DNA from: Gluconacetobacter tumulisoli
Lineage (GTDB): Bacteria > Pseudomonadota > Alphaproteobacteria > Acetobacterales > Acetobacteraceae
Assembly (NCBI RefSeq): GCF_014174155.1
Contig: NZ_JABEQM010000007.1
Coordinates: 1 to 64,000, forward strand
DNA: 64,000 nt
Direction of reading: 5' to 3'
Shown: positions 11,861-59,708 of the stretch, piece by piece
How the letters are laid out: each line of letters opens with the position of its first letter
Numbering within the stretch: the stretch's first letter is position 1
The notes under the pieces: model-generated
Databases searched by the model: none
What the model saw: the letters and a program-made list of their open reading frames with translations, nothing else
What the model was told of the DNA's origin: nothing
Position numbers and translations under genes: made by a program

Positions 11861-11937
11861 CGGAGTGTAGCTCAGCCTGGTAGAGCACTGTGTTCGGGAC
11901 GCAGGGGCCGGAGGTTCGAATCCTCTCACTCCGACCA
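11861..11937 (+). tRNA. tRNA-Pro (CGG)
   Basis: A 77-nt cloverleaf is clear. The acceptor stem CGGAGTG (11861-11867) pairs with CACTCCG (11927-11933), followed by A and an encoded CCA. The D-loop is AGCCTGGTAGA. The anticodon loop TTCGGGA gives anticodon CGG (Pro, codon CCG), with one G-T pair in the anticodon stem. The T-arm is GGAGGTTCGAATCCTC. CCG is a heavily used codon in this G+C-rich genome. Confidence 0.96.
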
Positions 11938-56969: not shown

Positions 56970-57033
56970 GGTTCAGGGCTCTGCCCTGAAACCCGCCAAA
57001 GGCCGCAGGCCTTTGGAAACCAATCCATTTATC
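56970..57033. repeat. Dispersed palindromic repeat, copy 10
   Basis: GGTTCAGGGCTCTGCCCTG, AAACCCG and the perfect stem CCAAAGGCC-gca-GGCCTTTGG (56996-57016) are followed by AAACCAATCCA. It lies between convergent pyk and the DUF1275 gene. Confidence 0.8.
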
Positions 57034-57083
57034 CGCAATTGGAATGCAGCCAAGCTGGGCGCGCCCCTGGGCACGTCGGTCGC

Positions 57084-57764
57084 CTACAGGGGGCTGACGT
57101 TTTCCAGCCGCTCCAGCAGCGGGTGATCGCGGAGATAGAGCAGGAATCCCGCGCCCGTGATCGTCAGCCCGACCAGCGCGATCGCGATCGGCACCGACAG
57201 GCTGGACGCCCACGCGCCCAGCACCGCCCCGCCGAACAGGCCGAAGATGGCGGCCAGCCGGCGCCAGGTGCCGCGCGCGGGGCCGCCGGCGAGGCGACTG
57301 TCATGCACCAGGCCGTGCAACAGCAGGGTCGCCGCCGGCAGGGTCAGGTCCGTGACCTGGGCGTGGCGGGTGGCCGAGGTCTGCAACCCCATCGCGACGG
57401 CCAGGACGACAAGGGTGACATAGTACCGCCACGTCATGTCCACCCACCAGATCGCCGCCGCCGCCAGGATAAGCGCGCCTACGCCCATCAGCAGGTCGGC
57501 GACGGTGCGCCGGCGCGAATGCGCCCGCCGCACCAGCCGGCCGCCCAGCGCGGCGCCGACCAGATAGGACGAGATGGCCAGCAGCCCCGGGCCAAGGATG
57601 GACTGGGCGGAGACCAGATGCACGGCGATCAGGATGACCGTTGCGGTCATGTAGCCCGTGAAAACCTGAAGGTGGGTCAGCGAAATGGCGTCCAGCGCCC
57701 CCATCGCGACGGTCACCATGATGACGGCGATGACCAACCTGGGATCGTGGGATTGGGTTTTCAC
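57084..57764 (-). CDS. DUF1275 (YoaK-like) membrane protein
   Basis: The 226-residue protein has six or seven transmembrane segments. The family start reads VTVAMGALDAISLTHLQVFTGYMTATVILI, and the later GLQTSATRHAQVTDLTLPAATLLLHGLVHDSRL is a hallmark of DUF1275/YoaK. Function and substrate are not established. Single gene. Confidence 0.88.
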   Translation of the reverse strand: MKTQSHDPRLVIAVIMVTVAMGALDAISLTHLQVFTGYMTATVILIAVHLVSAQSILGPGLLAISSYLVGAALGGRLVRRAHSRRRTVADLLMGVGALILAAAAIWWVDMTWRYYVTLVVLAVAMGLQTSATRHAQVTDLTLPAATLLLHGLVHDSRLAGGPARGTWRRLAAIFGLFGGAVLGAWASSLSVPIAIALVGLTITGAGFLLYLRDHPLLERLENVSPL

Positions 57765-57832
57765 GGCCTGCGTCTTTTCACTCCTGCGGGTTTCACCGGT
57801 GGGGTTTTAGCGGGTATCGCGGGAATTTGAAC

Positions 57833-57867
57833 AAAAAAAGAGGTGCATCGCATGCGATGCACCTCTT
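57833..57867 (-). terminator. Perfect palindromic intrinsic terminator
   Basis: A 30-base perfect palindrome (57838-57867; left half AAGAGGTGCATCGC plus centre) is followed on the minus strand by a run of seven T (57839-57833). It is the strongest rho-independent terminator in the window. Confidence 0.85.
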
Positions 57868-57978
57868 GCGAAATCAGGTCCCAAGGGCGTCACGGCCCCT
57901 GGCTTTTCATTCCCACGATCGTAATGCCGCAGGTTTCTTGTTCTTGGGAGCGGGCCGTTCCGGTCTTCTCGCTCTGGT
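57838..57978 (-). ncRNA. Candidate small RNA with terminator
   Basis: A compact minus-strand transcription unit without a plausible ORF. A sigma70-like promoter (58013-57985) would start transcription near 57978, and a strong intrinsic terminator lies at 57867-57833. The transcript would be about 140 nt. The tolC operon has its own terminator upstream, so this terminator needs another transcript. No known RNA family (6S, SRP, tmRNA, RNase P) is recognised. A short peptide gene is possible but no start codon with SD is seen. Confidence 0.45.
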
Positions 57979-57984
57979 AGGTCT

Positions 57985-58013
57985 TTAATGATCTGTTTTT
58001 TTCTGTCCGTCAA
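57985..58013 (-). promoter_or_regulatory. Candidate promoter for the small RNA
   Basis: On the minus strand TTGACG (58013-58008) is followed, after 17 bases, by CATTAA (57990-57985). The -35 match is strong, the -10 only moderate. Confidence 0.45.
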
Positions 58014-58049
58014 CGGAAATATACAAATAAACGCAAAACACTGCTTTTG

Positions 58050-58083
58050 TTGCACTGCACAATACATTGCACCGCACAATATA
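58050..58083. repeat. Two tandem 17-bp repeats upstream of the small RNA promoter
   Basis: TTGCACTGCACAATACA (58050-58066) is followed directly by TTGCACCGCACAATATA (58067-58083), identical at 15 of 17 positions. They lie 37 bp upstream of the candidate -35 and could be activator or repressor sites. Confidence 0.55.
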
Positions 58084-58133
58084 CCCGGATCACGACCATC
58101 GGTTATTTCGGGCGCATGGCGACCCGAAATGCG

Positions 58134-58158
58134 AAAAGGCGGGCCTGGGGCCCGCCTT
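58134..58158 (-). terminator. Terminator of the RND efflux operon
   Basis: AAGGCGGGCC (58136-58145) and GGCCCGCCTT (58149-58158) form a 10-bp stem with loop TGG, followed on the minus strand by T residues. It lies 30 bases beyond the outer-membrane channel gene stop. Confidence 0.75.
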
Positions 58159-58187
58159 CTGCACGCATGCCGTTTTGTCGCCGGCGT

Positions 58188-59708
58188 TCAGCCGGCGGTC
58201 GGGCCGGCCGGGTGGGCCGCCGTCGCGGTGGCGGCCGGGGCGTGTTCCGTCCAGCCCCCGCCCAGTGCGCGATAGACGGTGATCAGGTTCTGGTAGCGCG
58301 CTTCCTGCACCACGATCTGGTTCTGCTGCGCGTTATAGAACGTGCGTTGCGAGTCCAGCGTCGTCAGGTAGGAATCCACGCCCGCGTCGAAGCGCATCCG
58401 CGCCAGCCGATAGGCGTCGCCCGACGAGGCGACCAGCGCGTCGGTCTGGCGGGACTGGTCCAGGTAGGTCGACCGCGCGGCCAGCGCGTCCGAGACCTCG
58501 TGGAACGCGGTCTGGATCGCCTTTTCATACGCCATCAGCCGCTGGTTCCGCCGCGCCTTCGACACCTGCAGCGATCCTTCGTTCTGGCCCCAGGTCAGCA
58601 GCGGGATCTGCAGTTGCGGATTGACCCCCCACGTCGTGGCGCCCGTGGTGAACAGGTTGCGGAACTGCAGGCTGGACACCCCGTCCGACGCCGTCAGGAT
58701 CAGACGCGGGAAGAAGGCGGCGCGCGCGGCCCCGATGTCGTCATTGGCCGACAGCAGGGCATATTCCGCCGACATGATGTCCGGCCGCCGGTCGAGCAGG
58801 TCCGACGGCACGCCGGCCGGCAAATCGGCCAGCACGGTCTGGTGGCCGAACGGCGCGGGCGGCGGCAGGTCTGCCGGCAGCGGCGCCCCCACCAGCAGCA
58901 CCAACTGGTTTTCGTCCTGCGCGACCTGCCGCTGATATTGCGCGCGGTTGGCCGCCGCCTGCTCGACCTCGGTCTCGACCTGTCGCAGGGTCAGCTGCTC
59001 GGTTTCGCCGCGGTCGAAGCGGGCCTGGGTCAGGCGCAGGCTTTCCTGCTGCGACGCCAGGGTCTGCTCCGTCACGCGCAATTGCTCGCGGTCGGCCAGC
59101 CAGGCGACATAGGTCGTCGCGACCTGCGAGATCAGGCTGATCAGCACGCTGCGCTGGTTTTCCACCTGGCTCATCATCTCGTCCGTCGCCTCGCGCGACA
59201 GGCTGCGGATGCGGCCGAACAGGTCGACCTCGTAGGACGAGAAGCCGATGCCGGCCTGGTAAAACTTGAAGACGTGACCGTTGCCGTAGGCCTGGCCGTT
59301 CTTGCCTGCCTCCAGGCCCGGCGCGAAGCTGAGGCCCGCGTTCCCGGACGGCGCCTGATATATGGCCTGGCCGGTCGAACCGATCTGCGGGAACAGCGAG
59401 GCATGCTGCACCCGATACTGGCCCTGCGCCTGGACGACCGCGTACGCGGCCGAGCGCAGGTCGCGGTTTTCGCGCACCGCCAGCGCGATCACCGCCTGCA
59501 GGCGCGGATCGATGAAGAAGTCGCGCCAGCCCAGTTCGGACGCCGCGGTGCCGATCTGCCCGGTTCCGCTGGCGTGATAGGCCGCGCCCTGGGGCCAGGT
59601 CGCCGATACCGGCAGCGGCGGGCGCTTGTAGTCCGGAATCAGGGTGCATCCGGGCAGGGCCGCCATCAGCAGCAGCGCCGCCCGGCGCGGATGGAGAACT
59701 CCCTTCAT
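58188..59708 (-). CDS. RND efflux outer-membrane lipoprotein (NodT/OprM family)
   Basis: The 506-residue TolC-like channel has a lipobox leader (ALLLMAALPGC). Two internally repeated OEP domains carry ELGWRDFFIDPRLQAVI, YEVDLFGRIRSL and ARFDRGETEQLTL in the first, and RRPDIMSAEYALLSANDDIGAARAAFFP in the second. AGGAG precedes the ATG at 59708, four bases beyond the pump stop. It completes the tripartite system. It ends in a short Pro/Ala/His tail. Confidence 0.93.
   Translation of the reverse strand: MKGVLHPRRAALLLMAALPGCTLIPDYKRPPLPVSATWPQGAAYHASGTGQIGTAASELGWRDFFIDPRLQAVIALAVRENRDLRSAAYAVVQAQGQYRVQHASLFPQIGSTGQAIYQAPSGNAGLSFAPGLEAGKNGQAYGNGHVFKFYQAGIGFSSYEVDLFGRIRSLSREATDEMMSQVENQRSVLISLISQVATTYVAWLADREQLRVTEQTLASQQESLRLTQARFDRGETEQLTLRQVETEVEQAAANRAQYQRQVAQDENQLVLLVGAPLPADLPPPAPFGHQTVLADLPAGVPSDLLDRRPDIMSAEYALLSANDDIGAARAAFFPRLILTASDGVSSLQFRNLFTTGATTWGVNPQLQIPLLTWGQNEGSLQVSKARRNQRLMAYEKAIQTAFHEVSDALAARSTYLDQSRQTDALVASSGDAYRLARMRFDAGVDSYLTTLDSQRTFYNAQQNQIVVQEARYQNLITVYRALGGGWTEHAPAATATAAHPAGPTAG

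Follow-up and report, generated by a model that had tools for sequence, protein, structure and literature searches.

In a 64,000-nucleotide stretch of Gluconacetobacter tumulisoli DNA (hereafter the window), the minus strand between a DUF1275 gene and an efflux operon carries what is best read as a small RNA (sRNA) gene of the genus Gluconacetobacter. With moderate confidence, we regard it as a stand-alone gene that is controlled by PhaR and whose product is trans-acting, probably Hfq-dependent, and unrelated in sequence to MmgR, the PhaR-controlled sRNA already described in the PhaR literature. The RNA represents a new family, absent from Rfam 15, that is like MmgR in its presumed control but unlike it in sequence and shape. 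A small RNA had been proposed at this place in an earlier note made from the sequence alone, and it is this reading that comparison among relatives supports best, through conservation of the unit, changes that preserve base pairs, and independence from the neighboring genes.

The locus and its elements

The elements of the unit, all on the minus strand, are as follows.

58081-58048, minus strand: tandem 17-mers TATTGTGCGGTGCAATG and TATTGTGCAGTGCAACA, read from the sequence, identical at 14 of 17 positions
58062..58082, minus strand: distal PhaR-like box, 21 bp, by the S. meliloti PhaR matrix
58045..58065, minus strand: proximal PhaR-like box, 21 bp, its center 77 bp 5' of the presumed RNA start
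58008..58013, minus strand: -35 element TTGACG, read from the sequence
57985..57990, minus strand: weak -10-like element CATTAA, read from the sequence, with a 17-nt spacer to the -35
57833..57978, minus strand: putative small RNA gene, about 146 nt, found by blastn in 14 of 14 genus genomes and by covariance model R1
57948..57974, minus strand: hairpin 1 (GAGCG...CGCTC), inner ACCGGAA invariant, where a C-G pair in one clade is U-A in another
57932..57945, minus strand: A-rich linker AAGAACAAGAAACC with core AACAAGAAACC, from the alignment, (ARN)n-like, candidate Hfq distal-face site
57912..57933, minus strand: hairpin 2, 100% of cells paired, double change in one of seven pairs
57881..57902, minus strand: hairpin 3, from local folds of 14 sequences, its sequence differing by clade
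57838..57867, minus strand: intrinsic terminator, perfect 30-base palindrome AAGAGGTGCATCGCATGCGATGCACCTCTT with T's at 57839-57833, listed by a terminator scan

On the 5' side of the RNA gene lies a nodT-like outer membrane efflux gene (PF02321, 58188-59756) of an RND operon (PF00873), and on the 3' side, on the same strand and 69 nt past the T run in the window, a DUF1275 gene (PF06912, 57084-57764). An AT-rich stretch separates the tandem 17-mers from TTGACG. The 5' end of the RNA, 57978, was placed from the promoter spacing together with a conserved A(C/T)CAGAG start.

The TTGACG-N17-CATTAA promoter named in the earlier note is present on the minus strand by direct reading, and TTGAC is kept in relatives, both in the 12 of 14 loci that make up the main alignment and in L010 and L012 (other strand), which were added afterwards. 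A sigma-70 scan of 57000-59000 reported no promoter because the -10 hexamer is poor, CATTAA agreeing with TATAAT at only three of six positions; among relatives, this element reads CATTAA, CATGAA, CATTGA, CATGTA or CATCAA. The 30-base perfect palindrome and T run are likewise there as described, the palindrome being listed by a terminator scan of 57000-59000 that returned two sites on both strands, compared with 1.0 expected. The unit therefore has the layout of an intergenic sRNA, namely its own promoter, with a weak -10, and its own intrinsic terminator, between genes. At 58030-57991, two segments flanking the -35 are invariant in the 12 aligned loci, TTATTT on its 5' side and the A-rich spacer AGAAAAAAA on its 3' side; they could serve as an UP element or as another binding site.

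Conservation within the genus

A blastn search with 321 bases against 60 genomes matched 14 of them, comprising all 14 Gluconacetobacter genomes and none of the 46 others, and the unit is conserved from box through terminator in every one of the 14. The core motif is found in nine named records, which belong to eight Gluconacetobacter species and Nguyenibacter vanlangensis. Under strict filters and at E <= 0.1, covariance model R1 matched 14 of 299 family genomes, seven of them in the genus, while the seven matches outside it (L034-L040) have E-values of 0.0017-0.082 per genome and resemble chance when inspected. Applied unfiltered to pyk loci from 17 genomes that do not belong to the genus, R1 gave no E-value better than 0.09, and a search for the RNA in plasmids returned no match. 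Within the reach of these searches, the putative RNA gene is restricted to the genus.

An Rfam search, one of the checks proposed with the sequence, assigns the candidate to no family: at the gathering score, the sole Rfam 15 match over the window is a tRNA (11861-11934), and at E-values up to 10 there is no credible family over the unit. Nor did the RNA turn up in the titles and abstract starts listed by searches of the open literature on sRNAs of Gluconacetobacter and the Acetobacteraceae, Hfq, PHB in G. diazotrophicus, PhaR and the transcriptome.

Predicted structure of the RNA

Across 27 pairs and 14 sequences, 97.9% of cells are paired, compared with 34-55% after sliding by 1-3 columns. 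This count takes in hairpin 1 together with its inner stem, hairpin 2 and hairpin 4; hairpin 3, whose arms are not aligned, is excluded, and L004 and L005 are misaligned at hairpin 1, which lowers the count there. Covariation, also among the proposed checks, gave a divided answer. Five of the 27 pairs changed on both sides in the 14 sequences, and in the terminator three of 12 counted pairs carry double changes, but the number of further pair types is not above that of shuffles (407 of 500 as high), a control weakened by the relatedness of the sequences, just as kinship inflates the remaining pairing measures.

Of the 14 full-length minimum-energy folds, 10 contain hairpin 1, the four without it being L001, L002, L012 and L014; the fold of the window RNA does not contain it. 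Hairpin 3 forms in all 14 local folds from differing sequences, its arms being, by clade, CCAGGGGC/GCCCTTGG, CGAAGG/CCTTCG or GAGGG/CCCTC. The fold z-score of the window unit, -3.19, is owed to the terminator, since its removal leaves -0.04; four relatives without the terminator range from -0.89 to -2.32. Thermodynamics alone gives no evidence for a structured RNA.

The stretches invariant in all 14 sequences include ACCGGAA, within hairpin 1, and AACAAGAAACC, the unpaired core of the linker. An (ARN)n repeat is the rule for binding to the distal face of Hfq, and the AACAAGAAACC linker is a candidate for such a site. Sequence features expected of an Hfq-dependent RNA are present, in that AACAAGAAACC is invariant in 14, there is a U tail, and hfq is encoded; hfq (PF17209) is found in 13 of the 14 genus genomes, and the one genome without it is an assembly of 87% completeness.

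PhaR-like boxes upstream of the promoter

The earlier note had also pointed to two tandem 17-bp repeats as likely regulator sites. Both repeats are present in the window, although only 11 of the 14 genomes keep them as a tandem, while all 14 retain the proximal box; as regulator sites, they would fit PhaR boxes as judged by a matrix of S. meliloti sites. Each 17-mer consists of TGC-R-N-T-GCA within AT-rich arms, and ATTGTGCRNTGCAA occurs exactly twice in 64 kb, compared with 0.00 expected, the pattern having been drawn from the sites themselves. The motif of S. meliloti PhaR (AniA) is WNWD2NYGCRNYGCRNH2WNW, with gel-shift results tabulated in PMC12542648, and PhaR-type boxes are described for Bradyrhizobium and Herbaspirillum in PMC10888616 and PMC3206438. 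The published loose IUPAC motif is about as frequent in the window as chance predicts, with 5 occurrences against 4.65 expected, and is uninformative there; the matrix was therefore built from S. meliloti sites only. It comprises 18 sites from promoters scored 'Efficient' for PhaR binding in gel shifts, a score that is given per promoter and not per site, and leaves out weak, none and not-evaluated promoters as well as two of the four exoH sites.

With this matrix, the proximal box scores 28.0 bits and the distal box 19.9 bits, ranking first and second of 63,980 window positions, and the third-ranked position scores 12.4 bits. Random first-order Markov sequences, 60 in number, reached at most 19.0 bits for a single site and 23.3 bits for a tandem, as against a tandem sum of 47.9 bits here. 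The boxes lie at -77 and -94, the nearer one ending 31 bp 5' of the -35, so that, by sequence match, a PhaR box stands before the promoter. The proximal box is found at -77 with 24.8-28.0 bits in all 14 genomes; the distal box scores 13.7 bits or higher in 11 genomes and is lacking in L006, L007 and L014.

A tight box pattern has 43 exact matches in the 14 genomes, 34 of which stand at two sRNA genes, while its reversed control has one; the count is partly circular, and thus illustrative, because the pattern was chosen after viewing the sites. Of these matches, the new RNA accounts for 21, spread over all 14 genomes, and mmgR for 13; seven precede an oxidoreductase gene and two lie elsewhere. 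The box evidence is more independent where it comes from the reversed control and from the mmgR copies found through Rfam.

A boxed and an unboxed copy of mmgR

A conserved box 5' of mlaE was first met by pattern search, before the search with RF00519, the Rfam model of mmgR. An RF00519 RNA scores over the cut-off in all 14 genomes, and a further copy lies between the box and mlaE in 13 of the 14 (11 above the cut-off and two just below), the presence of which suggests why a conserved box is found there. These mlaE-linked loci are L188-L200, L194:1284-1357 corresponding to C7:218313-218386 of the window genome. All 13 mlaE-linked copies have boxes of 22.4-27.9 bits, while the other copy has no box above 4.8 bits in the six loci examined. 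In terms of predicted sites, mmgR is duplicated with split regulation, a boxed copy at mlaE versus an unboxed one. In S. meliloti, mmgR is among the targets of PhaR (PMC12542648) and is repressed by AniA/PhaR (PMC8401924, PMC7143759); with the boxed mlaE copy, the PhaR-like box is therefore found in Gluconacetobacter, too, at a relative of an sRNA known to be under PhaR control.

The new RNA was also considered as a member of RF00519 itself. That model has no match in 57700-58200 at E-values up to 10 and, at the gathering score (41 bits), none in L096, which covers the unit, and the MmgR core UUUCCUCCCU is absent from all 14 RNA sequences.

A third conserved PhaR-like box precedes the oxidoreductase gene (Gfo/Idh/MocA-like by eye), with a match in seven of the 14 genomes. 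Its context was inspected in five of the seven, at L098:1496-1516 (about 163970 on C7 of the window genome), L217, L218, L226 and L227; G002 and G009 were assigned by identical match only.

PhaR, PHB genes and possible targets

A phaR gene (PF07879) is encoded in 13 of the 14 genus genomes. The PhaR of the window genome scores above the TIGR01848 cut-off and adjoins a PhaC-like protein, in which PhaC_N is barely above its cut-off and the class III model TIGR01836, with an E-value of 5e-38, is below its own; the same arrangement of phaR beside a PhaC-like gene is reported for G. diazotrophicus (PMC4210832). The four phaR loci scored (L092-L095) have no strong box, the best reaching 7.4 bits, and none of the 14 genomes encodes Phasin_2 (PF09361), the only phasin family searched. 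The regulon thus gains no confirmation from the classic PhaR targets. The absence of Phasin_2 occurs despite the wide presence of phaR and, in the window genome, a PhaC-like gene.

The 11-mer complement of the invariant linker has no exact match common to the genus: of 24 exact matches in the 14 genomes, 14 lie in the RNA gene itself and 10 elsewhere, in seven genomes, the remaining seven having no second match. Hairpin 1 plus the linker showed no unusual pairing with the starts of phaR, a phaE-like ORF, the oxidoreductase gene, DUF1275, nodT and the RND gene, 16-98% of random windows pairing as strongly or more strongly; these are six of the seven intended genes, mlaE having been left out.

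Alternative explanations

A DUF1275 gene on the same strand, so close to the T run, invites the view that the unit is the 5' leader or attenuator of DUF1275 and its hairpin a conditional terminator, and a tblastn search with the neighboring proteins finds DUF1275 next to the RNA, on its 3' side, at 13 of the 14 loci. We consider this quite improbable. G. sacchari (L014, L089 and L020) has no adjacent DUF1275 but a convergent pyk instead, and still keeps the proximal box, TTGAC, the RNA and the terminator; L014 and L089 are one genome, and all loci without DUF1275 come from this one species of 14. No competing antiterminator was noticed in a non-systematic look at the printed folds. On the other side, a nodT match is missing from the upstream flank examined in L004-L007 and from 7 kb upstream in L021. 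Retained without either neighbor, the unit is therefore a stand-alone gene and not a DUF1275 leader or the 3' end of an operon. It is very improbable that the transcript is instead the mRNA of a short protein. Reading frames can be drawn, among them a 90-aa TTG ORF (57807-58079) that crosses the unit in the window and a 62-aa GTG frame in four of 14 loci, but the former is lost in relatives and frames between box and terminator vary by clade. Within the RNA, a closed ORF of at least 5 aa exists in eight of the 14 sequences, in several different frames, L014 has no ORF of at least 40 aa over the unit, and no ORF common to all 14 loci was found. The span of some 140 nt without a good ORF described in the earlier note is thus borne out, at 146 nt, as a span with no ORF conserved across the 14 loci, and a conserved short protein, which that note had named as counterevidence, is not common to the 14 loci.

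The sRNA gene could also be real while its boxes are bound by another regulator with a TGC-N3-GCA-type site and no link to PHB. PhaR binding in Gluconacetobacter is itself a prediction, the phaR region and phasins lend it no confirmation, and the boxes sit 5' of the -35. We nonetheless hold another regulator to be unlikely, since the S. meliloti PhaR matrix scores both boxes far above the rest of the window and the same box recurs at an mmgR copy, the S. meliloti relative of which PhaR binds. Sharing that box with mmgR would also suit a sponge that titrates mmgR (alpha-r8) siblings, for which CrfA acting on SisA-D in Caulobacter is a precedent (PMC12559287). Pairing speaks against it, and we give it very little credence: the RNA pairs with the mmgR core no better than shuffled RNA does (31-90% of shuffles as strong or stronger, 14 sequences), the reversed core, used as a control, pairs more strongly with all 14 except L009, and whole-RNA duplexes are inconsistent, with z-scores from -2.29 to -0.04 for the boxed copy (11 genomes) and from -1.55 to 0.78 for the other copy (four genomes).

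Proposed mode of action and implications

For the PhaR-controlled sRNA that we favor, the following course of events is envisaged. An RNA of about 146 nt would start at the TTGAC promoter and stop at the intrinsic terminator. PhaR, a regulator that senses PHB granules, would bind at -77/-94, to one box or to both, and would most probably act as a repressor of the gene, and PHB granules, or a carbon surplus, would titrate PhaR away so that the RNA appears. The RNA would then probably act in trans with Hfq, through the A-rich (ARN)n linker and the U tail, on mRNAs predicted to belong to the metabolism of carbon or of the envelope, and would complement the PhaR-boxed mmgR copy as the other of two arms. 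Repression by PhaR as opposed to activation is a guess toward which we lean with modest confidence. In S. meliloti, repression is the commoner sign among boxed genes, and phaP1 is assigned to repressed module 1 (PMC12542648). Activation is possible, however, given that the nearer box here ends 31 bp 5' of the -35 rather than covering the promoter.

The PhaR-like boxes suggest a second regulatory RNA linked to carbon storage beside MmgR, and they provide the family with a concrete candidate regulator. Because most tight PhaR boxes stand at two unrelated sRNA genes, we entertain, at somewhat less than an even chance, the broader idea that PhaR of Gluconacetobacter works mainly via sRNAs, the new family and the duplicated mmgR copy converting the carbon-storage state into post-transcriptional control of different targets. 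If an unrelated second RNA does have the same switch, RNA control of carbon storage was assembled more than once, and these plant-associated acetic acid bacteria would offer one genus with two such RNAs for the comparison of targets.

Comparison with known systems

CrfA of Caulobacter crescentus is a carbon-status sRNA that occurs beside several alpha-r8 siblings and sponges them via a G/A-rich loop, as described in PMC12559287; the new RNA shows no sign of the latter. The tandem spacing finds a counterpart in phaP1 of S. meliloti, whose PhaR boxes are 18 bp apart (Table 3, PMC12542648), compared with 17 bp here. Unlike the present promoter, that of phaP1 drives a phasin gene rather than an RNA, and its boxes are listed at 65 and 47 from the transcription start.

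The closest parallel is MmgR (alpha-r8, RF00519) of S. meliloti, which is likewise a stand-alone sRNA with a PhaR box at its promoter, as stated in PMC12542648 and PMC8401924, and is Hfq-dependent in that species. MmgR is 77 nt long, whereas the new RNA, at about 146 nt and with four hairpins, has a different sequence that lacks the UUUCCUCCCU core. The position of the box differs as well, being reported between the -35 and the -10 for mmgR and lying at -77/-94 for the new RNA. Gluconacetobacter has true RF00519 copies of its own, separate from the new RNA.
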